A stretch of DNA of 64,000 nt. Origin: Proteocatella sphenisci DSM 23131 (GTDB taxonomy: Bacteria; Bacillota; Clostridia; Peptostreptococcales; Filifactoraceae). How positions within the stretch are numbered: the stretch's first letter is position 1; the number at the start of each line of letters is the position of its first letter. Shown here one piece after another: positions 28,535 through 50,495 of the stretch. A program made the translations under genes and the position numbers. Location: contig NZ_AUID01000012.1 in assembly GCF_000423525.1 (NCBI RefSeq), forward strand, positions 1-64,000, in the 5' to 3' direction. The notes beneath the pieces were generated by a model. It searched no databases, was not told the DNA's origin, and saw only the letters and a list, made by a program, of their open reading frames with translations.

Positions 28535-28560
28535 ATATATCCAATTTATGCACTTACGCA

Positions 28561-28612
28561 AAAAAGCAGGATGAAATCTGATTATTGATTCAGATTTCAT
28601 CCTGCTTTTTTT
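28561..28612. terminator. Strong bidirectional terminator
   Basis: A 21-base near-perfect inverted repeat (arm AAAAAGCAGGATGAAATCTG) with flanking A/T runs separates two convergent chemoreceptor genes. Confidence 0.85.
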
Positions 28613-28632
28613 GATTTCATATTATTTTAAAA

Positions 28633-30657
28633 CTAGTATTCGCTCTTTATCCTGAAAGTTGACACAAGCTCCCTCAGCATTTGTGCCTGTGCGGAAAGTT
28701 CTTCACTGGCTGCCGCACTTTCCTCAGCAGTTGCCGAGGTGTTTTGTACAACTGAGGAAATCTGTTCAACTCCCGAAGTTATCTTTTCTGCTTCCTGAGC
28801 CTGAAGCGCAGATGAATCTGCAATCCTTATTATCTCCCTGCCTACAGCCTCTGTTTTTTCAACCACGAGGCCCAGTGCTTCTGCCGTCTCATTGATTATG
28901 GATCTTCCTGAGGCTATTGCTGTCATAGAGCCTTCTATAAGCTCCGTTGTCTCTTGAGCTGCCAGAGCTGATTTCTGTGCAAGGTTTCTTACCTCATCAG
29001 CCACTACCGCAAACCCTTTTCCCGCAGCTCCTGCGCGCGCTGCCTCTATAGCCGCATTGAGTGCAAGTATATTGGTCTGGAATGCTATATCGTCTATGGT
29101 TTTGATTATTTTTCCAATCTCATCTGACTTTTGTGTAATTATCTCCATAGCATCTACGATTTCATTCATCTTGTAATTATTATCGTTAACTGCTTTTCCA
29201 GTTTCGATGCTCAGGCGGCTTGCTTCTAGCGTATTTTTACTGTTTTCAGAAATCTTGTCTGTTATCTCAACAAGGCTTGCAGTAAGCTCTTCCACTGATG
29301 ATGCCTGCTCCGTCGCTCCCTGACTTAGATTCTGTGCCCCTGCCGAAACCTGCTCTGATCCATTTGCAACCTGATCTGCCGCTATTCCAATCTGTGAAAG
29401 TGTAGAGCTAAGTGATTCAGATATATTTATAAGCGCTGACTTTATCTTTGCAAACTCCCCATTATATTCCTGTGTAAGGGTAAAATCCAGATTTCCACCT
29501 GCTACATCATCAAGCACAAGAGTTATCTCATCTATATATGCCACGTATTTTCTAAGTCTGTCTGTGGTATTTCTCACCCCATCTGCAATCAGGCCTACTT
29601 CGTCATTGGTAACTACATCTATTCTTACGTCGAGTTCTCCAGCTGCAATCTGCTCCACCCCTTTTGCAAGGCGCTTCATAGGAGTAGTTATGCTCTTTGC
29701 TATGAAATATGTTATAAGTGCGATTATCAATGTCCCCGCAAGCAGTATTATCATGGCTCTGGTATTAAGGCCATTGACAACTCTGTAGTGCTCTTCATCT
29801 GGGAGCCCCGTCAGTACGGTCCAGCCAGTATCTCCTACGGCCTTTGTAACACCATATACATCCGTTCCCTTAAATTCATAGCTGAAGTCGTTCTCTTCTC
29901 TTGATTTTAAGGCAGATGCGACATTTTCAGATATGTCCATTTCTTCAATCGATCTGTCTATCATTTCAGAATCCGGATGGTAAATTATCCTTCCGTCATC
30001 GGAAAAAAGAATAAAAAACCCTGTCTCTCCGAGCTTATATGTATTAAAATTTTCTCCAAGCGTATCGAGAAGAAGATCTATTCCGGCAAAGCCAACTACA
30101 TTTTTTGTTCCTGGTTCAAAAACCGGGGAAACAAGGCTCACAATAGTCTTTCCTGTAGATGTATCTTCATACGGCGGCACAAGCATTGTGGATCCGAGCT
30201 CTTTTACCTTGTACCACGGCCTGCTAGTCACGTCCCAGTCCTTATTTGCCACAAACCCATCATTTTGGATATACTGGCTGGTGTCTGCATCTGCATACCA
30301 TGTAAACAATACGTTATGTGTATCAAGTGAAGCCGAATCCTTCATATCATTAAGGACCTGTATGTATTCATCTCTTTCAGAAATACGGTCAGATGAGTCC
30401 GTTACCTTGGCGAAAAGCTTAGCGGCAAGGCTGTTTGCTGCCATCTGCTCTGATACCATGCGGTATTTATAGAAGAACGATTCAGTATCCTTTGCAGCAA
30501 GCTCAGATTTATCCTCTATCTGCTGATTGGTGAGTCCTTCGAGTGCACTTCCAGATTCTCTGAGGAGCACGCTTTGCATTATTATCAGAGTAATTATGAC
30601 AGGAATTAGTATCATTGCTATCATTTTAAAAAGTATGCTGCTTTTCTGTTTTTTCAA
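28633..30657 (-). CDS. Methyl-accepting chemotaxis protein with dCache sensor
   Basis: This 674-residue receptor has a first helix near 9-29 ([20 protein letters not shown]), a double-Cache extracellular domain (about 35-295) with [21 protein letters not shown] and [14 protein letters not shown] typical of dCache_1, a second helix near 300-320, HAMP, and a cytoplasmic hairpin with tip [21 protein letters not shown] near 530. It is convergent with the neighbouring receptor and similar in its signalling half, suggesting paralogy. Start is TTG at 30657 with GGAG 6 nucleotides upstream. Ligand unknown, possibly amino acids. Confidence 0.95.
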
Positions 30658-34715: not shown

Positions 34716-37193
34716 ATGTTCTTTAAAAAAAACAATCTATTTAAATCAAGCACCAACATATCTGTAAGTAGTGAAATCACTCCAAAAAGAATCTCTATTT
34801 CCGAGAAAAATCTAGATATACTTCAGGAAATGAATCGTTCAAAGATGATTTCAAGACTTACCAATCAGGTTGAAGAAACAGCTGTCGTAGCAGACGGCTT
34901 GATTGCATCCACAAAAGGCATCAACCACTCTATCGAGGAGCAGATGGAAATTATAGACAATGTCGTAGATGAAATTACAAGCTATTCTTCACTGGCCGAA
35001 GAAGTCTTTACTAGTATTGAAAGCTCCAAAGAAATAGCTGAAAAAACTGTCGAAAACGCAAACGAAGGTACTAATGCTGTGGGAAATGTACTTGGATCAA
35101 TGGATGAAATAGAAAATGTTGTAAATGATGTAAGAAAGTCTGTAAACGAACTTTTTGAAAAATCAAAGAATATAGACGACCTTCTCAATATAATAAAAGG
35201 CATAGCAACCAGTACGAACCTTCTTTCCCTTAACGCTGCCATAGAAGCTGCCCATGCTGGCGCTGCAGGAAAAGGATTTGCAGTCGTTGCAGGTGAGGTG
35301 AAAATGCTTGCGGACAGAAGTATGGAATCCGTGGCCCATATAGATAATATCCTTAATGAAATTAAGCAGAGCATAGGCAATACATCAGACCTTATGCTCT
35401 CTGCAATAGACAAGGTAAATGATGGAAAACAGATATCTGAAGCTACAAAACAGGTCTTTGAAACCATTATAGATTCAGCAAGAGAAAATCTTAATGTGTC
35501 ATCTGAAATAAGCACAGCCATATCAAGACAGACAGATTCCCTTGAATCAGTTATATTTTCTACTCAAAAAATGAGCCAGAGTTTTTCTCAGCTCATAAAA
35601 ACAGTAGAGCTTACTATACTTAACACTGAGCTTACAAGCACAGCGCTGAGCAGACTAAATAACATATCCACTTCTATACAGGGGTCTCAAAAACTTATAT
35701 CTTCAAATGATTTAAGCAGTGAGGTTTCGGAATCACTTGTACTCAAGTGCTGTGAACCTTATGGTTTGTCTATTGTTGACCCAATGATCAGCTCTGACCT
35801 GGTGGATTCCAGCACATTGTACAATATCCACGGAACACTTATAAATATAGATATCAATGGAAAAGTCTCTCCTGGCATAGCCAAATTCTGGCATGTAAAA
35901 GACGACCAGCTTACCTGGGAATTCCAGATAAGAAAGGGCATTAAATTCCACAATGGAGACGTGCTGACAGCAGCAGATGTGAAGTTTTCCTATGAGAGAC
36001 TACTCAGCAAGGCGCTTGATGCCAATTCTGCATGGATACTTATGGATATAGAAGGTGCAAACGAATATCATAAGGGACAGGTTAAATCTGTAGATGGTAT
36101 CAAAGTTGTAAATTCCCATACCCTTACTATAAAGCTAACGAGCCCATATACAGGATTTCTTCTTAATCTGGGCCAGCCTGCTTCTGCCGTTATTTCAGCA
36201 CGTGCCTTTGAAAAAGAAAGTCAACTTTCAGGCTGCGGACCCTACAAGCTTACCAAAAACTCTAACGACGAAATGATACTGCAAGCCTTTGATGAATGTT
36301 ATTCTGGCGCTCCATATATTCCAAAAGTTAAGATTTCAACTAATGATGCAAATCGTGTTCAAAGAGTCATAGATGGAGAACTTGATTTCATAAGGATAGA
36401 AGACGGTATGTCATATCAGGCTGCAAAAAAAGCAAACCTGGAGATCCAGCAATTGGATATGCTCTCTGTTTACTACTTAGGATTCAATTTCAAGTCAAAT
36501 CACCCTGCTGTTCACTCCAAACTTGTAAGACAGGCTGTAAATCTTGCAATTAATAAGGACCAGATTGTAAAAGAAGTGCTAATGAATTACGGTTCCATAG
36601 CTGCTTCTCCACTTCCTCCTTCTATGCTTGAAGATAGCCACATATCTCCTTATCCTCATAATATTCAAAGAGCTAAAGAGCTTATACGTGCAAGTGGTGT
36701 GAGTAACCTTACCCTTAACCTCTATACCAGAGATGACGGAGGAAACGGACTCTTTAAGAGAACTGAAAAACTTGTGGTCGAAGATTTAAAGGCGGCTGGA
36801 TTTAATATAAATCTGCACAGCATCCCATCTGCGGAATTTATAAGGACTCGCGCATATGAAAAATCAGATGTCTTTATATCAAGATGGACTGCTGACACAG
36901 GAGATCAGGACAATTTCTTAAGACCTAACCTGACAAAGGACAGCAACGACAACTTCTGCGCTTACCATAATCCCGAAGTAGTTCAGCTTCTTGAAGATGC
37001 TAAGCAAATGGTCAATCCAACAAAAAGAGCGAAAATGTACAATGAACTTGCTGAGATTATTCACGAAGATGCCCCATGGGCATTCCTATTTCATCCCAAA
37101 AATGGAATAGCACATAAAAAGAACATAGGCGGTGCAAATCTCAATGCTATATCAATAATCAGATATGATCAATTCTTTATAAAAAATATTTAG
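34716..37193 (+). CDS. Soluble chemoreceptor-like protein fused to a family 5 solute-binding domain
   Basis: This 825-residue protein joins two parts not normally found together. Residues about 30-330 form a chemoreceptor signalling hairpin with tip [20 protein letters not shown] near 168-190 and GFAVVAGEV after it (ADEV and AAR are usual). Residues about 340-825 form an SBP_bac_5 domain, as in dipeptide/oligopeptide-binding proteins, with [20 protein letters not shown] near 405 and [15 protein letters not shown] near 605. There is no signal peptide or membrane helix, so it should be cytosolic. A cytosolic SBP_5 domain has precedent in the regulator SgrR. It begins a three-gene operon with two AraC-type proteins, facing the bai operon. 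Ligand unknown; sensing role inferred. Confidence 0.9.
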
Positions 37194-37207
37194 AAGGAGA
37201 GTATCTT

Positions 37208-38452
37208 GTGGAAAAAATTATTAAATCAAAGCGTATCTGTGGCAGACCTGTCCATTCCTATTTTACCGGAGTGGACAAGTATCTTCATCTTCAGAAACAT
37301 TGTATATATGACATAACTCCACCAATATCCGAAAATGAATCTTTATTAATTATAGTAAATTCGGGAAAGGGCCTTATTCTGATAAATGGAGTGGAGTTCC
37401 CTTTTGAAAAAGGCACCTTTGCCTGGCTACAATCATATCACACTTTTTCCATACAAGCTTTTGCCGACTATCCTCTGGAGATAAGCGTGTGTGTATATGA
37501 CTACCCGCTCTCCTCTTTTCTCGTATTTGAGGAGCCAGGGTCTGATGTGGTGGCCTCCATAATTGATGCCACTCCAGTTTTATATCCTCAAGGAGATCCG
37601 CTTTTAAAGATTCAATCCCTCTTTGATGAGTTTGAAAAGGAAAACGAGTGTTACGACCCCGGAAGTTCTCTTATTAAAGTATCAATACTGGGCCAGCTTT
37701 CTGATATTTTTGTAAGAAAGAGCTTGAAGTATCACCTGGGCCAGCCAAAATCAGAAAGACCTCTTGGTTGGAAGGTCATTCTTTACATGAGTGCGCATTT
37801 CTCAAAAGATCTCACTTCAGAAAATGTAGCTTCACATTTTGGTTCCTGCGTTTCTGACCTAAACCGTGAACTGCGCAATATAAGTGGGTATAACTTTGCG
37901 CAGATACTGAACCGAATACGCGTGAATATCGCTTCAATGGCGCTGCTTTATGAGGGAATGCCACTTTCCTATGTTGCGACTCATTCCGGATTTCCTTCAG
38001 AAACAGATTTTTATCGTACCTTTAAAAAGTACATGGGTATAACTCCACTTGAGTACCGAAGTCATATCCTTAACAAGGGTGATGGCATATACAGGGGTAT
38101 GATCATGGAAAGCACTTTGATGAAAATTCTGAATCACTGCTATTCCAGCTTTTCATATCCTATTAATATAAATAACACAGCAAAGAGTCTTTACATATCA
38201 GAGAGCATGGTCAGTGATCTTGTACAAAAGGAGTTTGGCATAAGTTTTAAAGATATTACTTCACTTAACCGTATCAGGCACGCTGAGGCGCTTCTTCTCA
38301 CAACAGATCTTCCGATCCTTGACATTGCAATAAATGTAGGATTTAACAGTTCGCGCTCTCTTTCAAGGGTATTTCGAACCATACACGGAATGACCCCGGG
38401 CGAATACAAGGCTCTTAACAAGGGAGGTTATTCAAATGACGTGCAAAAATAA
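37208..38452 (+). CDS. AraC-family regulator with two DNA-binding domains
   Basis: This 414-residue protein has an N-terminal cupin-like sensor region (about 1-170, with IIVNSGKGLILINGVEF), then two AraC/XylS helix-turn-helix units: one at about 186-286 ending in SYVATHSGFPSETDFYRTFK and GITPLEYRSH, and a second at about 303-402 ending in IAINVGFNSSRSLSRVFR and GMTPGEYKAL. Most AraC proteins have only one such unit. GTG start with AGAAGGAGAG upstream, 14 bases after the fusion gene. It may regulate the convergent bai operon, as AraC-type BarA is proposed to do in Clostridium scindens; this is inference from position. Confidence 0.92.
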   Translation: MEKIIKSKRICGRPVHSYFTGVDKYLHLQKHCIYDITPPISENESLLIIVNSGKGLILINGVEFPFEKGTFAWLQSYHTFSIQAFADYPLEISVCVYDYPLSSFLVFEEPGSDVVASIIDATPVLYPQGDPLLKIQSLFDEFEKENECYDPGSSLIKVSILGQLSDIFVRKSLKYHLGQPKSERPLGWKVILYMSAHFSKDLTSENVASHFGSCVSDLNRELRNISGYNFAQILNRIRVNIASMALLYEGMPLSYVATHSGFPSETDFYRTFKKYMGITPLEYRSHILNKGDGIYRGMIMESTLMKILNHCYSSFSYPININNTAKSLYISESMVSDLVQKEFGISFKDITSLNRIRHAEALLLTTDLPILDIAINVGFNSSRSLSRVFRTIHGMTPGEYKALNKGGYSNDVQK

Positions 38453-39038
38453 TAACTATCCGCCAATATATGCCAGCGGTCATTATTATTCAAAAAAAGA
38501 ATTCACTTTCCCAATTAACGCGGTCAATCAGACTGTAAATAATACAACTGTGCTCAAGAACAACAGCGGTATTACTCTGATTTATTTTCGAAGTGGTGAG
38601 GGAAGCATAATTATAAATTCCAAGCCTTATGAAATCAAAAGAGGCATGCTTATATGTTTAGGGTCATACCACTATTTCCAGATAAAGCCTTCAAATGTAT
38701 CCATAGAGCTTATGCAGTGCAGACTGAGCTATGATACTTTTTTATATATGGCCGCCAATCCTTACTATGATTTCTCTGAGATTACTCTGAATCCAAAACC
38801 TCTTACTGCATTACTTGAAGGTGAAATGCTTGAAAGGGCTGAGAATATAATTGAAGAACTTGTGGACACGAGCTCTAAAAGCCGAAAAAAAGAAAACTGC
38901 AGTAAATACAAAGACCTGTCTCAAAGTGGAAATATATCAGACAGATTTCTTCACAAAAGCGGAAATACAGAGTTTTTTCTGTGCATGAGATTGATAGGAA
39001 TCCTTCAAAAAACTTATCAGGTGGATTTTTGGAAGTAA
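38436..39038 (+). CDS. AraC-type sensor domain protein lacking the HTH
   Basis: This 200-residue protein resembles the N-terminal sensor part of the preceding AraC regulator: LIYFRSGEGSIIINSKPYEI and LICLGSYHYFQIK parallel LLIIVNSGKGLILINGVEF and FAWLQSYHTFSIQ. It ends (KTYQVDFWK) just where the DNA-binding unit would begin, and no HTH remnant follows before the terminator. The ATG lies inside the end of the regulator gene (17-base overlap) with GGGAGG 8 bases upstream, so the pair is translationally coupled. It may modulate the regulator by ligand binding or heterodimer formation; that is speculation. Confidence 0.8.
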   Translation: MTCKNNNYPPIYASGHYYSKKEFTFPINAVNQTVNNTTVLKNNSGITLIYFRSGEGSIIINSKPYEIKRGMLICLGSYHYFQIKPSNVSIELMQCRLSYDTFLYMAANPYYDFSEITLNPKPLTALLEGEMLERAENIIEELVDTSSKSRKKENCSKYKDLSQSGNISDRFLHKSGNTEFFLCMRLIGILQKTYQVDFWK

Positions 39039-39076
39039 TATAAGGTCAAAATAATCGCCCATGCTGGGCGCACCCA

Positions 39077-39120
39077 AAACAAGGCACCCCGGAGAATGTA
39101 TATCACAGGATGCCTTGTTT
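39077..39120. terminator. Bidirectional terminator of the bai and sensory operons
   Basis: AAACAAGGCA ... TGCCTTGTTT form a hairpin between the HTH-less AraC protein gene and baiH, ending both convergent operons. A smaller hairpin CGCCCATGCTGGGCG lies just before it (39056-39070). Confidence 0.7.
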
Positions 39121-39141
39121 GTATTTATGAAAAGGAAAATG

Positions 39142-41121
39142 TTATAGACTGTAGGCAGTTTCAAAGCCTTCCCACATGGCAAAGCTCGCCTGGCGCGCTC
39201 TTACAGCGTCACCTATTACATGAACTTGAGGAACAAATTCTTTAAGTTCAGCGGAAAGTGGGTCATAGTTTCTGGAACCAAGTCCAAATAAGATATAATC
39301 GAATCCTTGCAGCCATTCCTCAGAACCATCCAGACGCTGCACTTTTACTGCATGGTCAGTTACCTCAAGAATCTTTGTGTTTACATTGATGTCAACGCCG
39401 CTTTCTTTGAGTTTTCTTATAAGCGGTCCTCTGTTTGGACTGCACACTCCCGTAAGCAGCTGTGGCATCATCTCAATAAGAGTAACTTCCACATCACCAA
39501 TACTTGAATTGAATCCTCTGATATATGCTGATGGTCTTGCATTTACCATAACCGCTTCTGCCGTCTCACACGCTACAGCCCCACCTCCAAGTACGCATAC
39601 ACGTCCCTTTGGTATTACATATTTTCCCCTAAGGAAATCATGCGCTGTCAGTACTGGATAATCCTGCGTACCTTTTATTGGCGGCACAAGTGGTCTTGCT
39701 CCGGTTGCCACAATAACCGCCTCAGGAGCAAATTCTCTTACAGCATCTATAGTAGCTTCTTTATTAAATTCAATATTAACCCCGGCTTTTTTTGCTCTAT
39801 GGTTTAAATGTACCATCCATTTGGTCATTTCCTGTTTTCCAGGAGAAACAACGGCAAGGTTGATCTGGCCTCCGATTATGCTGTCTGCTTCCCATACAGT
39901 AACATCGTGGCCTCTCTCTGCTGCAGTAACTGCAGCGTACATACCACCTGGACCCGCACCTATTACAAGCGTCTTCTTAGGCTTTTCTGCCGGTACTTCC
40001 GGAAAATCATATTCTCTTCCTACAAGAGGATTTACATGGCAGTGACACTGTGGACTTTCTGCACTTCTCGAAATACAGCTTCCTCCACAGTTTGCACAAG
40101 GAGTTATGTCTTCAAATCTATTTTCCATGGCCTTGTTGCATATATCTGGATCTGCAAGCAGAGGTCTTCCCATGGATACTCCATCCACAAGTCCTCTTTC
40201 TACTATGTCAGCCGCATATCTTATGTCGTTTATTTTTCCTACAACGAAAACCGGAATGTTAACCGCTTTACGAATCTCAGATGCCTCATATACATTCACG
40301 CCTATATTTTTATTCTGACACGGGATTATATGCTCCATTCCTTCATACTGAGTCCCCCCTGATACTTCTATCAGGTTAACTCCAGCTGCTTCAAATTTGC
40401 GTGCAAGATAGATCATATCTTCAAGTGAGTTTCCCCCGATAGTTCTTTCATCTCCTGATACTCTTAGAAATATAGGAAAATCCGGACTTACGTTCTTTCT
40501 TACTTGGGCTATTATTTCCAGCATCAAGCGTGCTCTGTTGTCAAGGCTTCCTCCGTATTCGTCCATGCGCTTATTTCTAAGCGGTGACAGAAATGCTCCT
40601 GGAAGCATGTATGCATGGGCACAGTGAAGAAATATTCCTCCGCATCCGGACTCCTCTACACGTCTTGCTGCCTCACCGTACTGTTTTATGACAGTTTGAA
40701 TTTCATCGATGCTTATAGCTCTGCTCACATGACAGTTTGCATTTGTATTCACAGATGGTCCCATCGGCGCTATATTTCTGTAACCACATACAGATTCTGG
40801 CCCCGGATGGATAATCTGAGGAATAAGTGTGCTTCCTGTGTTTCCCACTCTTTTCGCAAATTCTTTAAACTGAGGAACCAGATCATCCGAATCAAGACAA
40901 GTAGTATTTCCCATATATGGGTATTTTCGATCTACAGTTACCGCATCGATTATAACAAATCCAGTTCCCCCTTCTGCTCTGCGGACAAAAACGTCAGCAA
41001 GGCGTTTTGGTACTGTTCCATCAGCTACTTCGTAATCCATGCTCATAGGGGCCATCCCAACACGATTTTGAAGAGTCAGTGAACCCACTTTTAGTGGTGA
41101 AAATAATTTTGAGTTTTTCAT
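39142..41121 (-). CDS. baiH: BaiH-like NADH:flavin oxidoreductase (bile acid dehydrogenating)
   Basis: This 659-residue enzyme is close to the 661 residues of C. scindens BaiH. It has an old-yellow-enzyme FMN barrel (about 1-330, with NRVGMAPMSMDYE and FLSPLRNKRMDEYGGSLDNR), an Fe-S cysteine cluster starting CANCGGSC near 337, and a C-terminal FAD/NAD domain with VIGAGPGGMYAAVTAAERG near 382. BaiH acts on 3-oxo-delta4 bile acid intermediates (7beta-hydroxy series, and later reductive steps). ATG at 41121 has AGAGGT upstream. It is the last gene of the operon; no baiI follows. Confidence 0.92.
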   Translation of the reverse strand: MKNSKLFSPLKVGSLTLQNRVGMAPMSMDYEVADGTVPKRLADVFVRRAEGGTGFVIIDAVTVDRKYPYMGNTTCLDSDDLVPQFKEFAKRVGNTGSTLIPQIIHPGPESVCGYRNIAPMGPSVNTNANCHVSRAISIDEIQTVIKQYGEAARRVEESGCGGIFLHCAHAYMLPGAFLSPLRNKRMDEYGGSLDNRARLMLEIIAQVRKNVSPDFPIFLRVSGDERTIGGNSLEDMIYLARKFEAAGVNLIEVSGGTQYEGMEHIIPCQNKNIGVNVYEASEIRKAVNIPVFVVGKINDIRYAADIVERGLVDGVSMGRPLLADPDICNKAMENRFEDITPCANCGGSCISRSAESPQCHCHVNPLVGREYDFPEVPAEKPKKTLVIGAGPGGMYAAVTAAERGHDVTVWEADSIIGGQINLAVVSPGKQEMTKWMVHLNHRAKKAGVNIEFNKEATIDAVREFAPEAVIVATGARPLVPPIKGTQDYPVLTAHDFLRGKYVIPKGRVCVLGGGAVACETAEAVMVNARPSAYIRGFNSSIGDVEVTLIEMMPQLLTGVCSPNRGPLIRKLKESGVDINVNTKILEVTDHAVKVQRLDGSEEWLQGFDYILFGLGSRNYDPLSAELKEFVPQVHVIGDAVRARQASFAMWEGFETAYSL

Positions 41122-41156
41122 TATAATGCTACCTCTTTTCATTACTGATTATTTAT

Positions 41157-42617
41157 TTATTTTGCTTTGCTGTCATGTATCTTTGGCATCATCCTTACAA
41201 TTATAATACCTGCTATAATGCATGCCACCTCGATTAATGCAAGGGTCTGTATTGAAGAAGTAGCCGCTTGAACAACTGCAGCGCCCTGTTCAGCACCTGC
41301 TACAGTAGCCCTGTCGATAAGTCTAGTCACGCTGTTTGTAAACATAGGTACGAATACTGCTACTCCAAAAGGTGCCGCTATATCACGGAAAAGTCCGTAT
41401 GTACCTGTTCCTGATCCTGCCAGTTCACTGGATAATCCGCTCAGTGCTACCTTCATGAATATTGTAGCATTTCCTCCAAGTCCGATTCCCAGGATACCAA
41501 GTGATGCTGCAAATATTGCTATTGAAGAATCCGCCTTGAAGAAGTACATTATGGCGCAGCCTATGCCTGTAAGCACAAGTGAAAATGTAAGTATGGATCT
41601 TGGCTCTTTTTTGTCTGCCTTAGGTCCGATCAAAATAGCACCAAGTGACATCCCGATGTACATTATCGAAATGGCAAAGCTTGCTATAAGTACATTGTCC
41701 GGCTGAGTGTATCTTACAAACACAATTACATTGGTCATGTTAGCCTGCATAAGTCCCTGTGTAAGGAAAAGAATCATCACAGGAAGTATGAATTCCTTAC
41801 GTGCCATGAATGTACCATTTAAAACAGGGTTCTTAACTTTTTTCTCAACCTTTATAAGGGCAAACAGTGATATGATTGCAACTCCAGCTACAGTCATAAA
41901 GAGTGTGGAACCCCAGCCTATATTCTGTCCAAAAGACGGAACGCAAAGGAAAAGACTGAAGAACACAACAACAAGTGCAGCGCCTTTTTTATCAAAATCT
42001 ACAAGACTTTTCTTTTCAAAAGCCGTTTTCTTTATAACTAATGAGCAGAATAAGAATACCAGAGCGCATATGGCAACGCATACCCACATCATCACTCTCC
42101 ATCCTGCCGCCTTCATGATCAGTCCGCCGCAGGTAGGTCCGACAACTACTGCACCGCTCGATACCAGCATGTACACAGCAAATCCTTTTCCCATTTCTGC
42201 AGGAGGATATTCAGAAACAATATAAGACATTACAACCGGCGCAATAGCTGCAGTACCAATACCTACAACAAATCTAGCCGCCAGCATCAACATCAAAGAT
42301 GGGGCAATAGCCGTAAGTATGTTACCAAGAGTAAAAATTCCTATTCCTATAAGTAGAGTCTTGCGTCTTCCAAGTACATCTCCCAATTTACCAAGAATGG
42401 GAGCACATGCTGCGGCTGACATTGCCAGTGCAAGCGATATCCAGGTAGTATTATTGTAGGCAAGCCCCTGATCCGCTACGAATGCCGGTGCCAGAACTGC
42501 TGTAAATCCTCCAATCAGTCCCAACATAAGGGCTGCAACAGCATATGGTATGAATCCTTTTTTATAATCTGTAGCTGGTTTAATATTATTACCTTTTTTA
42601 TTTAACGCGGCATCCAT
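41157..42617 (-). CDS. baiG: BaiG-like bile acid transporter (MFS)
   Basis: This 486-residue protein has 12-14 predicted membrane helices and the major facilitator motif GKLGDVLGRRKTLLIG near 76-91 between helices 2 and 3. BaiG of C. scindens is a proton-driven importer of primary bile acids of similar length (477). Position between baiF and baiH matches the known operon. The start ATG at 42617 has a GGAAGGGGA site. A strong hairpin lies just upstream in the baiF-baiG gap. Confidence 0.9.
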   Translation of the reverse strand: MDAALNKKGNNIKPATDYKKGFIPYAVAALMLGLIGGFTAVLAPAFVADQGLAYNNTTWISLALAMSAAACAPILGKLGDVLGRRKTLLIGIGIFTLGNILTAIAPSLMLMLAARFVVGIGTAAIAPVVMSYIVSEYPPAEMGKGFAVYMLVSSGAVVVGPTCGGLIMKAAGWRVMMWVCVAICALVFLFCSLVIKKTAFEKKSLVDFDKKGAALVVVFFSLFLCVPSFGQNIGWGSTLFMTVAGVAIISLFALIKVEKKVKNPVLNGTFMARKEFILPVMILFLTQGLMQANMTNVIVFVRYTQPDNVLIASFAISIMYIGMSLGAILIGPKADKKEPRSILTFSLVLTGIGCAIMYFFKADSSIAIFAASLGILGIGLGGNATIFMKVALSGLSSELAGSGTGTYGLFRDIAAPFGVAVFVPMFTNSVTRLIDRATVAGAEQGAAVVQAATSSIQTLALIEVACIIAGIIIVRMMPKIHDSKAK

Positions 42618-42644
42618 TATATAATCCCCTTCCTTTTTATTTTA

Positions 42645-42669
42645 TGAAAGGCGGGCTTTGCCCGCCTTT
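42645..42669 (-). repeat. Strong GC-rich hairpin between baiF and baiG
   Basis: A perfect inverted repeat with 11-base arms (GAAAGGCGGGC / GCCCGCCTTTC) and a three-base loop lies between the baiF stop and the baiG start. On the minus strand it is followed by ATAAAATAAA rather than a T-run, so it is not a typical terminator. It could protect or cut the mRNA and so change transporter expression relative to upstream genes. Confidence 0.6.
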
Positions 42670-42677
42670 CAATAGAA

Positions 42678-43952
42678 TTATTTCTTTCTCATGTGCGGAA
42701 TTACTTCTTCCAATCTATAACGCTTTATTGTTGTAGCAAGATCAAATTCTTTAGTTATGCCCTTTTCATACAGACTTTGTATCTCTTCGTCAGAATATCC
42801 CAGATCTTTCAGTATATCTTTGTTATCCATACCAAACAAAGGTGCACCTCTCCATATTTGTGAAGGATTGTTCTTAAACTTGTTTATAAGTCCAAGGCCT
42901 TTAACTCTTCCCATCATTGGATCATCCCATTCCATTACTGTCTCACGAGCTTTCCAGTGAGGGTCATTCAGGCAGTCTTCAAGTTCGTAAACTCTCTGAC
43001 ATGGAATTTGATTAGCGTGCATCAGAGCCTCTACCTCTTCCATAGTATTCTCTGATACAAACTTCTCAACAGCAGCTTCCATTCTCTGTCCTACAGGTGA
43101 ATTGATCAACCAGCCTGTAAATCCTTCTGGAAAATCTGGATCTCCAGTTCCAGGTACGGGAAGTCCTATTAGAGGGTATCCACGTTTGCATACCTCAGCC
43201 CCAGTCATTCCGATAAATATAGTCTTTCCATCCTTACAAGTATAGAAACTGAACAGTGCCGCCTGTGTATCTTTGTTTCCTGTTCTTGGCATCTTTATAT
43301 CGTCAGTAGCATACTGCATCATACGTCCGTCCATTATTCTGGCTAAAGCCTCATATTGGGCTACGTCAACGGATTCTCCCTTTCCAGTTAACATTGTACT
43401 TACATAACATGCAAGCATTGTCCAGCATGTAGTAAGTCCACACACAAAGTCACTTAGATATGGATTAACCTTTAATGCCTCAGTAGTTCCGTTTAGAGAC
43501 ATGTATCCACTGAATGCCTGTCCAACTGCATCGTAAGAAGCCTTTGTTACATAAGCAGGATCCCCTGTCTGACCATATCCTGATACATGGACTATAGCAA
43601 GCTTTGGATTTACCTTCCAGATCTCTTCATCTGAAAGACCCAGTCTGTCATACTGTCCTCCTTTTGAAGACTCTACCCAGATGTCTGCCCATTTTATTAA
43701 TTTGAAGAAAATCTCTCTTCCTTCTTCTGTCTTTATATCTGCTACCATTGAAAGTTGATTTCTGTGGTTCTGAGGATAGCCATACCATCCACGCTGATTG
43801 TCCGGTTTATTTGGAGCTTCAAAATGAATTACCGTAGAACCGCACTCTGAAAGAAGTCCTCCTCCAAGAGGTCCTGCAATATTTGAACCACTGTCCAGTA
43901 CTTTTAATCCTGAAAGCGCTCCAAATTGTGGAAAATCTTTTAATCCAGCCAT
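42678..43952 (-). CDS. baiF: BaiF-like bile acid CoA transferase
   Basis: This 424-residue protein belongs to the CaiB/BaiF (family III) CoA transferases; C. scindens BaiF is 426 residues. The N-terminal fold has SGLKVLDSGSNIAGPLGGG, and the aspartate at 168 (NPYLSDFVCG) fits the catalytic residue that forms the acyl-CoA anhydride. BaiF moves CoA from the deoxycholate-type product to incoming primary bile acid, saving ATP. GGGAG precedes the ATG. It lies between baiA and baiG as in the known operon. Confidence 0.93.
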   Translation of the reverse strand: MAGLKDFPQFGALSGLKVLDSGSNIAGPLGGGLLSECGSTVIHFEAPNKPDNQRGWYGYPQNHRNQLSMVADIKTEEGREIFFKLIKWADIWVESSKGGQYDRLGLSDEEIWKVNPKLAIVHVSGYGQTGDPAYVTKASYDAVGQAFSGYMSLNGTTEALKVNPYLSDFVCGLTTCWTMLACYVSTMLTGKGESVDVAQYEALARIMDGRMMQYATDDIKMPRTGNKDTQAALFSFYTCKDGKTIFIGMTGAEVCKRGYPLIGLPVPGTGDPDFPEGFTGWLINSPVGQRMEAAVEKFVSENTMEEVEALMHANQIPCQRVYELEDCLNDPHWKARETVMEWDDPMMGRVKGLGLINKFKNNPSQIWRGAPLFGMDNKDILKDLGYSDEEIQSLYEKGITKEFDLATTIKRYRLEEVIPHMRKK

Positions 43953-44017
43953 ATTTATATCTCCCTTATGTTTATTAGTTAAAGTTAAAGTTATTTTTAA
44001 AATTACAGGTTTTCAAA

Positions 44018-44767
44018 TTATGGTCTGTAAGCTCCATCTACACTGATTGTAGTTGCAGTTATTCCGCTTGCCAGATCTGATGCAAGGAACATATACACAT
44101 TTGCTATTTCTTCAGCCTCAAGCATTCTCTTCATTGGAAGAGTTTTAAGGTATCCGTCCAGAATTTCCTGTGGCATTCCACTCACCATATCTGTATTAAC
44201 CACTCCTGGAGCCACGCCAACTACACGGATATTCTTTCTTACAATTTCTCTTCCAAGACCATGAGTCAGACCTATTACTCCTGCCTTAGTTGTTGGGTAT
44301 CCTATACCTGAAAGTGAACCGTATACACCTGTTACAGATGCCGTATTTATAATTACACCTTTTTTAGCATCCTTCATGCACTGATAAGCAGCCCAGGCAC
44401 CGTTGAATACTCCTATAAGGTTTACGTCTACTATGTTCTTAAACTCATCTTCTTCTACTTTGCTGAAAACTGTGTTCATTGAAACTCCAGCGTTATTTAT
44501 CATAACATCCAGTCTGCCGTATTTTTGAGCTACTGCACCAACTGCACCCATTACTTCATCTCTTGAAGCAAGGTTTGGAGCAAATCCAAGCACTTCTTCC
44601 TCTGGATATAGTCCCTTAAGCTCTGCAAGCGCAGCGTCTACTTCTGGCTGAGTTTCTCCAAATATAGCTACCTTTGCCCCATTTTCTATGAATTTTCTTG
44701 CTGCTGCAAAACCTATTCCGCGAGTTCCACCAGTGATTACTGTAATTTTATCTTGTACTAGTTTCAT
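44018..44767 (-). CDS. baiA2: BaiA-like 3alpha-hydroxysteroid (bile acid-CoA) dehydrogenase
   Basis: This 249-residue short-chain dehydrogenase has the same length as C. scindens BaiA2. Cofactor loop TGGTRGIG is at 12-19, NNAG at 92-95, and the catalytic set is Ser145, Tyr158, Lys162. Glu42 after the second strand corresponds to the residue known to select NAD over NADP in BaiA2. It oxidises the 3-hydroxyl of cholyl-CoA and probably works in the reductive arm too. GGAG precedes the ATG. Confidence 0.94.
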   Translation of the reverse strand: MKLVQDKITVITGGTRGIGFAAARKFIENGAKVAIFGETQPEVDAALAELKGLYPEEEVLGFAPNLASRDEVMGAVGAVAQKYGRLDVMINNAGVSMNTVFSKVEEDEFKNIVDVNLIGVFNGAWAAYQCMKDAKKGVIINTASVTGVYGSLSGIGYPTTKAGVIGLTHGLGREIVRKNIRVVGVAPGVVNTDMVSGMPQEILDGYLKTLPMKRMLEAEEIANVYMFLASDLASGITATTISVDGAYRP

Positions 44768-44844
44768 GATTTTATCTCTCCTTGTTGTTTAAATTATTTA
44801 AATGGTTTAAATGGTTTTCCAGTTCTGTTGTCCTTCTGTTCCTC

Positions 44845-45348
44845 TTATTTGTCATGCATATTTGTTAATATTCTTCTTTTTTCATCTCTTCTAAAGTTTT
44901 CTTCATAAATTCGTACATAACCAGTTTCTAATATGTACCATTGTCCATCAACTTTTTCATACTTGTCTGTATAGAATGCCCCGCCATTAACCTCTATACC
45001 CTTATACTTTCCATCTGTAAAAATCAATTTATCTTCTAAATACCATCTTCCTGAAGCTATATTTTCGCTTTCAAGAGTAATTTCTGGAGTGTGTCCTGTG
45101 TGCATGCTGATTTCTTCAGGAGGCATCGCACTTCTCAAATAATCTGTAACTTCTTTTGGACTCTTAAAAACAAGTTTTCCATCAGAATAAGATGTGACAA
45201 TATTAGGTGAAAGCGTAGATTCCAGCTCATCCCAGTGCTTGCTGTCAAGACATCTGAAATATTTTCCTTTTAATTCTTTAATTGCCTCAATATCATTTAT
45301 ATTTTGAATTTCTTTTTCAAGGGCGATTATTCTTTCTTCTAAAGTCAT
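44845..45348 (-). CDS. baiE: BaiE-like bile acid 7alpha-dehydratase
   Basis: This 167-residue SnoaL/NTF2-fold protein matches BaiE (166 residues), which removes the 7alpha-hydroxyl from 3-oxo-delta4-cholyl-CoA, the rate-limiting step of 7alpha-dehydroxylation. The catalytic residues known from C. scindens fall at identical positions: Tyr30, Asp35, His83 and Arg146 (also Asp106). This gives strong support for true activity rather than a distant SnoaL homologue. AAAGGA precedes the ATG. It lies between baiCD and baiA. Confidence 0.95.
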   Translation of the reverse strand: MTLEERIIALEKEIQNINDIEAIKELKGKYFRCLDSKHWDELESTLSPNIVTSYSDGKLVFKSPKEVTDYLRSAMPPEEISMHTGHTPEITLESENIASGRWYLEDKLIFTDGKYKGIEVNGGAFYTDKYEKVDGQWYILETGYVRIYEENFRRDEKRRILTNMHDK

Positions 45349-45383
45349 GTCTATAAATCCTTTCTATTTAAAATAATTATTAT

Positions 45384-47303
45384 TTAAATTGACATACCCA
45401 CGTTGTAGCCTTCAAGTGTTGCAATTCTTGCATCTCTCGCCTTAACTGCGTCTCCAATTACGTTATATGGAATATTAAGCTCTTGGCATTTAGCTTTTAG
45501 ATCTTCACTTGGACGAGATGTGATTCCAGTACAGATAACTACTGAGTCGCACTCAAGCGTTCCAGGAATGATTTCTTTAGTCTTTTTGTCGGTTATATTG
45601 TAATGGATTTCTCCTGGTTTTATTCCTGTAACATCAGTACCTGCCAGTTTTGCTATCTTGTAGTACTTGAGCTCTCCTGGTAAGAACATTCTTCTAAGCA
45701 TATTCATGCCTGTACCAATACCTTTTCTCTCTATTGCCGTAACCTCTTGTCCTCTTGAAGCAAGCAATTGCGATACTTCTGTACCTACAAGTCCACAGCC
45801 GACAACTGCTACATGACCAGTCGGGTTTACTTCTCCCCTTAGAACCTGGTACTGTGAATATACATTAGGGCTGTCAATTCCTGGGATTTCAGGTGCCACA
45901 TAGTCAGAACCTATTGCAATGATTACATGGTCTGGTGCTATTTCAGCAATCTTTTCTGGGGTTACAGCTGTATTAAGCATAACTTCAATTCCCTGACGCT
46001 TAACTTCTTCCGCTTCCCATATTGCCATATTCGCCCAGTCCTGTTTCATGGGCGCAACTCCGGCAAGAGCAAATTGTCCTGAAAGTTTGTCAGATGATTC
46101 AAATATTACCGGTTCATGTCCACGTTTTTTAAGTATCTGCGCCGCCATAAGTCCAGCCATTCCCCCGCCGATGATCATTACCTTTTTAGCTTCTTCCGTC
46201 TTTGGAAGTCCCTTATATTCCTGAGCTACCATAGGGTTATGAGTGCACGTTATACTCTTCATCTTAGGATCAATTATCGCATCATAGCAGCCCTGTACGC
46301 AGCCTATGCAGTGACGGATTGTGTCTTCTTTGCCATCTCTTACTTTTGCAACCCAGTCTGGATCTGTAATCTGAGAACGCCCTATACCTACAAGATCAAA
46401 TTTACCTTCCTCTATTACTCTGTTTGCCATTTCTCCGGTCTTGATGCTTCCCACACCCATTACCGGGATCTTGATCTGCTTCTTGATGTTGTATATGTTC
46501 TCTATATTGAAGCCATGTGCAAGGTTGAATGGAGGAACCTCATATACTGTAGCAAATGACACTGCATTTCCACGGGAAATGTCTGCCACGTCCACCCCTA
46601 GATCCGCACTTCTGTTTATGAATTCAACTATTTCTGCTTCTGTCATAGTCTCGTCCATAAGTTCGTCAATACATCCCACTCTCATGAAGAAAGGCATGTC
46701 CTCTGGTATGTTGTTACGGATTGCTGTAATTGTCTCGAAAAGGAATCGGCAGCGATTTTCAAAATTTCCACCGTATTCATCTGTACGCTTGTTCATTCCT
46801 GGACTAAGGAACTCATGAGGAAGATAGCTGTGCGCTGCATGAAATTCTACAGAATCAAATCCAGCTTCAACTGCTCTTTTTGCAGCAAGTCCAAATTCTT
46901 CAACAATCTCATGGATTCTCTCTACTGAAAGATTTTCAGGTTTTTCCAGTACATTTGTTTCGTCAAAGAACAGTTCCGGGCTAAATCCTCCATGCCATAG
47001 CTGAACGCTCATCTTGCCGCCAACCTCATGTACAGCATCTGTAAGTTTTTTCAGCTGCTCTACATGATGGTCATTGTAAAGTCCCATATACATGTACGCA
47101 TGTGGAGCTGGACATATGGCAACGCATTCAAAAATATTAAGTGCACACCCTGCCTTAGCTCTTGCTACATGATATGCTATAAGATCCTCTCCTATATCAT
47201 GCTTGCTCTTTGTCATTTTTGTGTTCATTCCTGGCAGAATAATTCTGTTCTTTAATTCCAGCCCACGAATTTTAAACGGTGAAAATAATGCTTCATAACT
47301 CAT
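45384..47303 (-). CDS. baiCD: BaiCD-like 3-oxo-delta4-cholyl-CoA oxidoreductase
   Basis: This protein has 639 residues, the same length as C. scindens BaiCD. It has an N-terminal OYE-type FMN barrel (NRIILPGMNTKMTKS, HEFLSPGMNKRTDEYGGNFENR), an Fe-S cluster motif HCIGCVQGCYD near 330 with a fourth Cys in TCTHNP, and a C-terminal FAD/NAD part with MIIGGGMAGLMAAQILKKRG near 370 and GCGLVGTEVSQLLASRG near 495. BaiCD introduces the delta4 double bond in the cholate (7alpha-hydroxy) series. GGAGG precedes the ATG. It follows baiB by 79 bases. Confidence 0.94.
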   Translation of the reverse strand: MSYEALFSPFKIRGLELKNRIILPGMNTKMTKSKHDIGEDLIAYHVARAKAGCALNIFECVAICPAPHAYMYMGLYNDHHVEQLKKLTDAVHEVGGKMSVQLWHGGFSPELFFDETNVLEKPENLSVERIHEIVEEFGLAAKRAVEAGFDSVEFHAAHSYLPHEFLSPGMNKRTDEYGGNFENRCRFLFETITAIRNNIPEDMPFFMRVGCIDELMDETMTEAEIVEFINRSADLGVDVADISRGNAVSFATVYEVPPFNLAHGFNIENIYNIKKQIKIPVMGVGSIKTGEMANRVIEEGKFDLVGIGRSQITDPDWVAKVRDGKEDTIRHCIGCVQGCYDAIIDPKMKSITCTHNPMVAQEYKGLPKTEEAKKVMIIGGGMAGLMAAQILKKRGHEPVIFESSDKLSGQFALAGVAPMKQDWANMAIWEAEEVKRQGIEVMLNTAVTPEKIAEIAPDHVIIAIGSDYVAPEIPGIDSPNVYSQYQVLRGEVNPTGHVAVVGCGLVGTEVSQLLASRGQEVTAIERKGIGTGMNMLRRMFLPGELKYYKIAKLAGTDVTGIKPGEIHYNITDKKTKEIIPGTLECDSVVICTGITSRPSEDLKAKCQELNIPYNVIGDAVKARDARIATLEGYNVGMSI

Positions 47304-47382
47304 TTTGTATCCTCCTTGATCGATTGATTGTATTATATTTTAAATAAAAATTACCGACTTTCATTGTTCATTTAAAACGTTA

Positions 47383-48900
47383 TTAGCTGGACACGTATTC
47401 TCTTAATATCCTGTCTCTGTCGGTCTTTCCATTACCTACTCTTGTCAAATTATTTACAAATTCAAAGGTCTTGGGAATCTTGTACGGCGACAGATATTGC
47501 CTTAAAAAAGTTCTTAATTCCTCTTCTGATATTCCTGTTGTAGACTCTATAACCGCATGAATGAGTCTTCCCCATTCTTCATCAGGGATGCCAACAACAA
47601 TTGCATCCATAATGCCCTCATGTCTGAGCAGGGCAGTCTCTACTTCGTTAACAAATACATTTTCCCCACCTGTCACCAGCATATCATTTCGCCTGTCTAC
47701 AAAATAAAGATATCCATCTTCATCTATATATCCAAAATCTCCAACACTTCTAAATCCATCCTTTGTAGTTTCCAGCTGTTCCTTGTTCATATATTCTGTA
47801 TCAAAGCATCCATCTGGAAATGTCATATAGATTTCACCAAGTTCACGTGGGGGCAATTCTTTTCCCTGATTGTTGCGAATTGATACCTTTCCATTACATA
47901 TAGGGCGTCCAATACTTCCAGTATGTTTTAACCACTCATCTCCTCTGATACAAGTCAGCCCTATCACCTCAGTCATGGAGTAAATCTCATGAATTTTTTC
48001 CGGCCCCAGCAGATCTATCCACCTTTTTTTGAGCCAGTCAGAGCAGTATCCGCTGGTATGACATATAGCCTTTATAGAGTCAAAGTCTTCGATTTTCAGA
48101 CCAGGAATCTTAATGATACGATTTAAAAGAATAGGTACCATTTGCGCATATTCTATCTGGTATTTTTTTATCAGTCTTACAATGTTTCCTGCACACAGAT
48201 TCCTTGGTATTACCAGGGTATTGCCGGAGAACAGACCGTTAAATGCTGCAGTATGAGGTGCCCCATGAAATAATGGACCCAAGAGCAGCTGCCTTTGTTC
48301 AAATCCCATCCCAGACATATGAAACCAAATTTGTAAAATGTCATCTGATATTCCACTTGGCATGTTCTGACGTATGAGCTTAAGATTTCCACTAGTTCCC
48401 CCGGAAAGTGAGATCATGTTAGGATCTGCCTTGATGTCTTCTGGCATTTCTTCTGATTGTCCTTCCATACTCTCGTACATCTTTTTATAATTTAAGGTTA
48501 TAGGCACTCCTGGAACTTCAAATTCTGCAAATGCAATAGTTGGTGATATCATATCGCCGATTTCTACAAATTCCTTATCAGCTGTCTTGCTGGAGACTGG
48601 AAGATAACAGGCTCCTACCTTCCATATGGCAAATGCTGCAATTATATGTTCAATGCAGTTGGGCCATGCTACCATGATTACCGAACCCGGTTTAATGTTT
48701 TTTTCCATAAGCATCCATGCCAGCTTATTTGATTGTATGTATAGTTGACTCCAGGTTATAAAAGAAGTTTTTTCTTCCTTATCAATATAAATAATGGCGG
48801 TATCATCTGGTTTATAATCTGCAATGTATTTTAGTTGCATTCCAGCAGTTACAAAATTCGATTGACCATTGTTGAATTTGTTGAAAAAGCTACTGCTCAA
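47383..48900 (-). CDS. baiB: BaiB-like bile acid-CoA ligase
   Basis: This 505-residue protein of the AMP-forming ligase family starts the bai operon; it would activate cholate to cholyl-CoA using ATP. It has the ATP motif SLSGGTSGNLKLI near 163, GLTCIRG near 320, and GDFGYIDEDGYLYFVDRRND and GGENVFVNEVE around 388-415. I use TTG at 48900, since GGAGG lies 8 bases upstream; the frame extends to 49002 but crosses the promoter. C. scindens BaiB is about 520 residues. Confidence 0.92.
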   Translation of the reverse strand: MSSSFFNKFNNGQSNFVTAGMQLKYIADYKPDDTAIIYIDKEEKTSFITWSQLYIQSNKLAWMLMEKNIKPGSVIMVAWPNCIEHIIAAFAIWKVGACYLPVSSKTADKEFVEIGDMISPTIAFAEFEVPGVPITLNYKKMYESMEGQSEEMPEDIKADPNMISLSGGTSGNLKLIRQNMPSGISDDILQIWFHMSGMGFEQRQLLLGPLFHGAPHTAAFNGLFSGNTLVIPRNLCAGNIVRLIKKYQIEYAQMVPILLNRIIKIPGLKIEDFDSIKAICHTSGYCSDWLKKRWIDLLGPEKIHEIYSMTEVIGLTCIRGDEWLKHTGSIGRPICNGKVSIRNNQGKELPPRELGEIYMTFPDGCFDTEYMNKEQLETTKDGFRSVGDFGYIDEDGYLYFVDRRNDMLVTGGENVFVNEVETALLRHEGIMDAIVVGIPDEEWGRLIHAVIESTTGISEEELRTFLRQYLSPYKIPKTFEFVNNLTRVGNGKTDRDRILREYVSS

Positions 48901-48950
48901 TATCAATTCCTCCTCGCTATGGATTTTTATACTTATCTTTATTCTCTGAT

Positions 48951-48966
48951 TGTTATAATTGTAACA
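48951..48966. promoter_or_regulatory. Operator-like palindrome at the predicted bai start site
   Basis: TGTTATAATTGTAACA is an inverted repeat with perfect TGTTA/TAACA arms and one internal mismatch. It covers about +1 to +16 of the predicted baiB transcript, a place where a bound repressor would block transcription. A 12-base part (ATGTTACAATTA on the minus strand) also occurs at 34660-34671, 45 bases before the chemoreceptor-SBP fusion gene. Confidence 0.5.
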
Positions 48967-48973
48967 TCTAAAT

Positions 48974-49002
48974 ATAATATTCATCGGAAAAATCAATATC
49001 AC
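48974..49002 (-). promoter_or_regulatory. Predicted baiB promoter
   Basis: On the minus strand GTGATA (49002-48997), 17 bases and TATTAT (48979-48974) form a plausible sigma-A promoter. The weak -35 suits an activator-dependent promoter. Start would be near 48967. Confidence 0.5.
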
Positions 49003-49029
49003 TTTATAACGAACCTGGCTCTATTTGGC

Positions 49030-49070
49030 GGACAAAACATGTTATAATTATGGACAAAATATGTTATAAT
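49030..49070. repeat. Tandem 19-bp repeats upstream of baiB
   Basis: Two copies, GGACAAAACATGTTATAAT (49030-49048) and GGACAAAATATGTTATAAT (49052-49070), differ at one base and are 22 bp apart, about two helical turns, so both face the same side. They lie about 63-103 bases ahead of the predicted start, a usual place for AraC-type activator sites. No other copies were seen in the window. Confidence 0.75.
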
Positions 49071-49096
49071 ACTGTCAAAGTTTAAAACTCAAACAA

Positions 49097-49141
49097 AAAA
49101 AGAGCATGAAATACAGTAAATCCGTATTTCATGCTCTTTTT
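49097..49141. terminator. Terminator between mgtE and the bai promoter
   Basis: AAAGAGCATGAAATAC ... GTATTTCATGCTCTTT is a near-perfect hairpin with A- and T-runs; on the minus strand it ends mgtE transcription before the bai promoter. Confidence 0.85.
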
Positions 49142-49151
49142 GAAATTATAT

Positions 49152-50495
49152 CTACAATTGAAGCAGTCTCTGTGCAATATTGAAATAAAATATAAGAGAA
49201 AAAGCATCGACTAATGTAGTTATTATTGGTGCCGCCATTATCGCAGGGTCAACCTTAAATACTTTTGCAGCCATTGGAAGCAGGCATCCCACAGTCTTTG
49301 CTACTATTACTGTTGCAAAAAGGCTGAGGGCAACAGTGAACGCTATGATTTCGTTTCCTGGATACATTACCAATAATCTAAAAAAGTTTACAACTGACAA
49401 AACACTTCCCACAAGAATACTGACTCTCAGTTCCTTCCATAAAACCTTGCCCACGTCTGCAAGCTTTATCTCCGAAAGTGCCATTCCCCTTATTACAAGT
49501 GTTGAGCTCTGAGAACCGGCATTTCCTCCCGTATCTGTAAGCATTGGTATAAAGGTAACAAGCAAGGGAAATGTTGCAAAGGCGTATTCATATTTTTGAA
49601 GCACGTTACCTGTGACCATTGCTGATATCATAAGTACAAGAAGCCACGTTATCCTGTTCCTTGCAAGAGAAAAGACGCTGGTTTTTAAATATGGTTTTTC
49701 TGATGGTCTCATTGCAGCCATAAGTTCAAAGTCTTCTGTAGCTTCTTCATTTATTACATCAACTGCATCATCTATGGTGACTATACCTACAAGCCTTTTC
49801 TCATGATCCACCACTGGAAGAGAAAGTAGTCCATATTTTGAAAATATGGCTGCAACTTCTTCTTTGTCATTGTCTGTAATCACTGATATTACATCAGTTT
49901 CCATTATGTTCTCCAGAATTTCTTGAGGATCTGAAAGAATCATGGTCTTTATAGATACAACTCCTTCGAGTTTTCTGCCGTCATTAGTTACATAGCATGT
50001 ATAGATTGTTTCCATATCGCGCGCAAGCATCCTTACTCTGTCAAATGCCGCATCCACAGTCATGTTTTTTTTCAGGTGTATAAATTCAGCTGTCATGATA
50101 CTTCCCGCACTGTTTTCTTTATACATTAAAAATTGATTTATAAGGTCTCTGGTATCACTGTTTGCATTTTCAAGAACCCGCTTTACAACATATGCGGGCA
50201 GTTCTTCAAGAAGATCAACTGCATCATCTACAAAAAGATCTTCAATTATTTCTGCGAGTTCACTGTCAGTTACCGAGTTTATTATGTGCTCCTGGGTATC
50301 CGACTCAAGGAAAGAAAATACCTCTGATGAAATTTCCTTTGGAAGCATCCTGAATACCACAATCATTTTTTCAATTTCAAGAGTCTCAAAAAACTCTGAA
50401 ATATCTACTTCATTCATCTCTATCAAAATTTCTCTCAGATCGATGAATTTCTTATTTTCTATAAGTTCATATAGTTCTAAGTTTCTATTTTCCAT
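49152..50495 (-). CDS. mgtE: MgtE magnesium transporter
   Basis: This 447-residue protein has the MgtE layout: acidic N-terminal superhelical domain (about 1-125), two CBS domains (about 130-250, with SIMTAEFIHLKKNMTVDAAF) and a membrane part of five helices (about 280-447) with TFIPMLTDTGGNAGSQSST, where the conserved aspartates and glycines line the pore. It imports Mg2+ and is gated by Mg2+ binding to the cytosolic part. A GGAGG site lies just before the ATG. Its 318-base leader holds a small ORF and a terminator. Confidence 0.96.
   Translation of the reverse strand: MENRNLELYELIENKKFIDLREILIEMNEVDISEFFETLEIEKMIVVFRMLPKEISSEVFSFLESDTQEHIINSVTDSELAEIIEDLFVDDAVDLLEELPAYVVKRVLENANSDTRDLINQFLMYKENSAGSIMTAEFIHLKKNMTVDAAFDRVRMLARDMETIYTCYVTNDGRKLEGVVSIKTMILSDPQEILENIMETDVISVITDNDKEEVAAIFSKYGLLSLPVVDHEKRLVGIVTIDDAVDVINEEATEDFELMAAMRPSEKPYLKTSVFSLARNRITWLLVLMISAMVTGNVLQKYEYAFATFPLLVTFIPMLTDTGGNAGSQSSTLVIRGMALSEIKLADVGKVLWKELRVSILVGSVLSVVNFFRLLVMYPGNEIIAFTVALSLFATVIVAKTVGCLLPMAAKVFKVDPAIMAAPIITTLVDAFSLIFYFNIAQRLLQL

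Follow-up and report, generated by a model that had tools for sequence, protein, structure and literature searches.

A Peptacetobacter-type bai operon in Proteocatella sphenisci, with relocated regulators and an empty site in a congener

The question raised by a cluster of seven minus-strand genes in Proteocatella sphenisci DSM 23131 is whether it encodes bile acid 7alpha-dehydroxylation and, if so, how it came to occupy its present site. The cluster lies in a stretch of 64,000 nucleotides of contig NZ_AUID01000012.1 (hereafter the window), in which a first-pass annotation had read positions 39142-48900 as a complete bai operon. Four type strains of cultured Clostridia, this one among them, have been reported as bai operon carriers (PMC9426597).

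Gene content and predicted function

The genes for BaiB, CD, E, A, F, G and H were all found in one same-strand cluster, in the claimed order baiB-CD-E-A2-F-G-H, and all seven reading frames were open and intact. The lengths proposed for BaiCD, BaiA and BaiE (639, 249 and 167 aa respectively) likewise held. From the first gene to the last, the operon comprises:

47383..48900, minus strand: baiB, bile acid-CoA ligase, 505 aa; TTG start behind AGGAGG; NCBIfam NF038344
45384..47303, minus strand: baiCD, NAD(H)-dependent flavin oxidoreductase, 639 aa; NCBIfam equivalog NF041087
44845..45348, minus strand: baiE, bile acid 7alpha-dehydratase, 167 aa; PDB BaiE matches and key residues
44018..44767, minus strand: baiA (A2 position), 3alpha-hydroxysteroid dehydrogenase, 249 aa; Glu42; PDB 4is2
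42678..43952, minus strand: baiF, bile acid CoA transferase, 424 aa; CoA_transf_3 family; 84.9-86.3 % identical to other BaiF
41157..42617, minus strand: baiG, MFS bile acid transporter, 486 aa; MFS_1; 70-75 % identical to other BaiG
39142..41142, minus strand: baiH, flavin oxidoreductase; 80-82 % identical to other BaiH; likely start ATG 41121

The mechanical reading frame of baiB extends to 49002, and the TTG at 48900, with the strong ribosome site AGGAGG, gives the 505 aa product and fits the end point annotated earlier. BaiH has 666 aa when read from the first ATG and 659 aa from the ATG at 41121, where the ribosome site is better and which is more likely the true start.

The proteins were compared with those of five complete bai operons, from Dorea sp. 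D27, Lachnospiraceae CE91-St61 and Extibacter muris (L002-L004) and from two Peptacetobacter-like genomes (L032, L033). Identity to the counterparts in these operons was 57-64 % for BaiB, 75-79 % for BaiCD, 73-79 % for BaiE, 85-86 % for BaiF, 70-75 % for BaiG and 80-82 % for BaiH, and BaiA was 74-78 % identical to the baiA products of the two Peptacetobacter-like loci. The gene order is common to the window and these independent loci, and the range of 57-86 % for all seven proteins lies clear of the approximately 40 % that the first-pass annotation had named as its floor. BaiH is only about 30 % identical to BaiCD and is therefore clearly a BaiH.

Curated models and solved structures gave the same assignments. 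BaiCD scored 878 bits against the NCBIfam equivalog NF041087 (cut-off 825) and BaiB 944 bits against NF038344 (cut-off 650). The PDB relatives of BaiE were three BaiE sequences only, headed by 4leh (E=5.8e-89) and including 4l8p (E=2.5e-87). The best PDB match of BaiA was 4is2 (E=2.5e-135), a solved bile acid 3alpha-hydroxysteroid dehydrogenase. As judged by sequence comparison, these matches are specific and not due to chance. The active-site residues named in the first-pass annotation were recovered in the alignments: Tyr30, Asp35, His83 and Arg146 of BaiE, with Asp106 kept besides; Glu42 of BaiA, together with the Ser144/Tyr157/Lys161 triad; and the aspartate of BaiF, which is residue 168 in the motif SDFVCGL and aligns with ADYFSGL of CaiB. 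Which of these residues act in catalysis is established for the characterized enzymes. That the cluster is an ordinary operon of old-yellow-enzyme reductase, CoA ligase and CoA transferase which acts on another substrate (carnitine or other steroids) and is merely bai-like is scarcely credible: the best NCBIfam and PDB matches of BaiF are carnitine CoA-transferases, and the 2,4-dienoyl-CoA reductase superfamily includes both BaiH and BaiCD, but every gene has a close counterpart in bai loci with the same gene order, BaiB and BaiCD exceed curated cut-offs, and the signature enzyme BaiE matches BaiE structures alone with all named residues kept.

The description of the operon as complete stood in part. 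All core-step genes are in place, but baiI is absent genome-wide and the regulatory genes barA and barB lie just beyond the annotated span. In the search of the whole genome for BaiI the best match was BaiE itself, at 25 % identity. The presence of baiI as last gene, as in the C. scindens arrangement, was not treated as defining for a bai operon. In vitro, BaiB, CD, E, A2, F and H are sufficient to convert cholate into deoxycholate and BaiI is dispensable, the addition of its product being without effect (PMC10936602). All six of these enzymes are encoded here, as is the transporter BaiG.

In the predicted pathway, BaiG would import free primary bile acid and BaiB would couple it to CoA, after which the 3alpha-hydroxyl would be oxidized by BaiA and the 3-oxo-delta4 intermediate formed by BaiCD. 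BaiE would then remove the 7alpha-hydroxyl as water, BaiH and BaiCD would reduce the ring, BaiA would restore the 3alpha-hydroxyl to give deoxycholate or lithocholate, and CoA would be recycled by BaiF. This order of reactions is established for homologues and would apply by inference to the present operon. No member of the bile salt hydrolase family was found in the genome; therefore only deconjugated bile acids would be usable, and conjugated ones would have to be deconjugated by other organisms.

From its sequence, the predicted gene set for turning primary into secondary bile acids (e.g. deoxycholic acid) is real, with its core steps complete, in a gut-type bacterium. The best explanation of the locus is, with very high probability, a bai operon that works in the 7alpha-dehydroxylation of bile acids.

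An empty site in a congener

The operon and its regulators coincide with a segment that is missing from a congener (G001) at the same site:

37193..49168: 12-kb block of barA, barB and baiH-G-F-A-E-CD-B, missing from the congener at the same site

In the congener, a chemoreceptor-like gene (84 % identity) and mgtE (81 %) are just 113 bp apart. DNA homology between the two genomes ends at 37192, where the chemoreceptor gene has its stop codon, and restarts at 49169 inside the 3' end of mgtE. The regulators and the operon therefore form one 12-kb block, present here and absent from the congener. Neither BaiCD nor BaiE, taken as markers of the operon, was found in the 10 other sampled genomes of the family.

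We consider that the block was likely gained by horizontal transfer into the lineage, because the congener lacks it between the same flanks and because most of the Bai proteins are closer to those of Lachnospiraceae than is RpoB: identity to the Lachnospiraceae proteins is 65 % for the partial RpoB but 74-86 % for five of six Bai proteins. In a tree of the Bai proteins the window clustered with the operons of the Peptacetobacter-like genomes (80 % bootstrap), a grouping that fits more than one donor and direction of transfer. The alternative, vertical inheritance within the genus followed by deletion in the congener, appears rather unlikely. A clean junction in the congener is equally expected from a deletion, the flanking gene pair is not polarized by an outgroup, and the grouping with Peptacetobacter is the one that the species themselves show. 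However, the lack of the operon in all 10 of the other family genomes and the difference in identity between RpoB and the Bai proteins favour gain over loss.

The probable transfer left no sign of a vehicle among the features that were sought. The block junctions showed neither an integrase or transposase nor a tRNA, and the whole window is free of tRNA. BaiCD and BaiE turned up in no plasmid or phage record, and the G+C content of the block (0.402) equals that of its surroundings. An explanation by a mobile element was rejected on the tRNA, plasmid or phage and G+C results.

Relocated regulators and a paired operator-like box

Two AraC-type regulatory genes (37208-39038), outside the span of the first-pass annotation, lie behind baiH, and two repeated boxes and a terminator lie at the other end of the operon:

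37208..38452, plus strand: barA, AraC-family regulator, 414 aa; two AraC-type DNA-binding domains (two HTH_18 stretches)
38436..39038, plus strand: barB, 200 aa; resembles the BarA sensor part, lacks DNA-binding domains
49030..49069, minus strand: 18-bp box TTATAACATRTTTTGTCC in two direct copies, spaced by 22 bp and lying 130-170 bp ahead of the baiB start; putative BarA site
49097..49141: terminator separating baiB and mgtE, a perfect 18-bp hairpin with a T run

The names barA and barB are taken from a previous study (PMC9426597). BarA shares 56-64 % identity with the regulator that diverges from baiB in the five other bai loci, and BarB shares 54-61 % with the gene paired with barA there; BarB aligns to the N-terminal sensor part of BarA. 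In all five of these loci the two genes are divergent and upstream of baiB, whereas here they are convergent with the operon, and only 14 bp separate barA from the preceding chemoreceptor-like gene (34716-37193), which carries an SBP_bac_5 domain. Both regulators are probably read from the transcript of that gene.

The chemoreceptor-like gene encodes a single chain in which a chemoreceptor signalling domain (MCPsignal) precedes the solute-binding domain (SBP_bac_5). Its homologues are 84 % identical in the congener and 48 % in one other genome of the family. It was ruled out as a bai gene and is regarded as host background, since the bai-less congener has one and the other bai genomes do not. 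Near the block (26480-30657) the window encodes another two chemoreceptors, which have Cache/PDC and HAMP domains.

For the box TTATAACATRTTTTGTCC, the expectation for the window is 0.04 occurrences when up to two mismatches are allowed, and two copies free of mismatches were found. The box also occurs without mismatch exactly once per genome in three Lachnospiraceae genomes, before baiB, and with three mismatches before baiB in one Peptacetobacter-like locus. BarA would bind the paired box, and transcription of the operon probably starts before baiB under this control. Only exact copies are counted, because matches at up to two mismatches were about as many as in a reversed control; a wider regulon was rejected on this basis, and no bai genes were found behind the two-mismatch matches. 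Box-like matches with four mismatches near baiJ and baiP homologues of other genomes were judged to be chance.

The regulators' position also raises the prospect that this is a genuine bai operon which is now silent or weak, the move of barA and barB behind an unrelated gene having broken their divergent self-regulation. The uniformly divergent arrangement in the close loci fits such a loss, but all nine genes (the seven bai genes, barA and barB) still have open frames and good ribosome sites, and the box before baiB is both kept and doubled, which suggests continued selection. We regard a silenced operon as improbable and favour a working one.

One further copy of the box (n=1), in the form TTGTAACGTGGTTTGTCC, was found elsewhere in the genome (contig C10:52716), approximately 150 bp before a SnoaL-like gene that is followed by a gene for a BaiP-like flavoprotein; it has moderate weight because the pattern was widened after this copy had been seen. 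The box-preceded pair (G000:C10, L038:4717-7190) consists of a 168-aa SnoaL-like protein, which keeps the Tyr30, Asp35 and His83 positions of BaiE in alignment, and a flavoprotein that shares 72-74 % identity with its counterpart in the Peptacetobacter-like genomes. The pair may constitute a second bile acid locus with a dehydratase-like gene. The SnoaL-like gene was also considered as a hidden baiI and rejected, as it has no significant similarity to BaiI and is not near baiP in the Peptacetobacter-like genomes.

Relation to known bai loci

The closest likeness is to the two Peptacetobacter-like loci (L032, L033; genomes G185 and G206), to which we give the inferred name Peptacetobacter hiranonis. 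These have the same order B-CD-E-A2-F-G-H with baiA in the operon, no baiI behind baiH, a BaiE 79 % identical to that of the window, and barA and barB. They differ in that barA and barB are divergent and upstream of baiB rather than downstream and convergent. In L032 baiI lies beyond barB, whereas the genome of the window has none; baiI was not seen within the L033 stretch either.

The operons of Dorea sp. D27, CE91-St61 and Extibacter muris share B-CD-E-F-G-H (64-86 % identity), barA and barB, and the 18-bp box before baiB. In contrast to the window, they lack baiA and have baiI behind baiH. In CE91-St61 and D27, both of which were checked, baiA is beside a baiJKL-like cluster (L104/L106). 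In Extibacter muris, baiB and baiCD are fused in a single stop-free frame of 1168 residues (L004:8414-11920), and they are separate genes in L002 and L003.

Split clusters of the Paraclostridium sordellii type (L035-L037) encode homologues of BaiA, CD, H and E at only 36-52 % identity, and the genes form A-CD and H-E pairs; B, F and G, all present in the window, are missing from the stretch. The BaiE relatives in these pairs (genomes G123, G188 and G078) are 52 % identical, and the layout is that reported for Paraclostridium sordellii, a strain of which has low activity (PMC10382948). A further divergent bai cluster (L034, genome G313; BaiE 59 %, BaiCD 55 %, BaiH 69 %) has the layout E-CD / H-barA-A-B-G described for uncultured cluster 1 bacteria, yet belongs to the taxonomic order of the window. 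Across 395 sampled genomes of this order, a BaiE of at least 78 % identity was present in 3, the window's own included, and relatives at 52-59 % in a further 4, consistent with the earlier remark that few bacteria carry the pathway.

The baiA in the operon is the sole close copy in the genome, the next-best short-chain dehydrogenase being just 31-32 % identical. Reports on DSM 23131 describe a single baiA inside the operon (PMC10936602) and a BaiP (PMC9645264) encoded elsewhere, and both features were found here. The system belongs to a known kind, the Peptacetobacter type of bai operon, and has probably been described already. The empty site, the relocated regulators and the paired box are modest additions that were not found in the literature texts consulted; the position of the regulators may show in published figures.

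A broader reading, which we advance tentatively as possible but not probable, is that bai genes travel between distant Clostridia as a self-contained block of enzymes, transporter, dedicated regulators and 18-bp operator. Here the block would have come to lie behind a native chemoreceptor-like gene, so that a host promoter drives the regulators, and a second BarA-controlled locus, with a BaiE-like SnoaL protein beside BaiP, would extend the pathway.

Very few bacteria produce secondary bile acids, compounds that influence the metabolism of the host and its resistance to Clostridioides difficile. The natural empty site in a sister species offers a paired comparison for pathway gain, and the common 18-bp box is a testable candidate operator for the BarA regulator.
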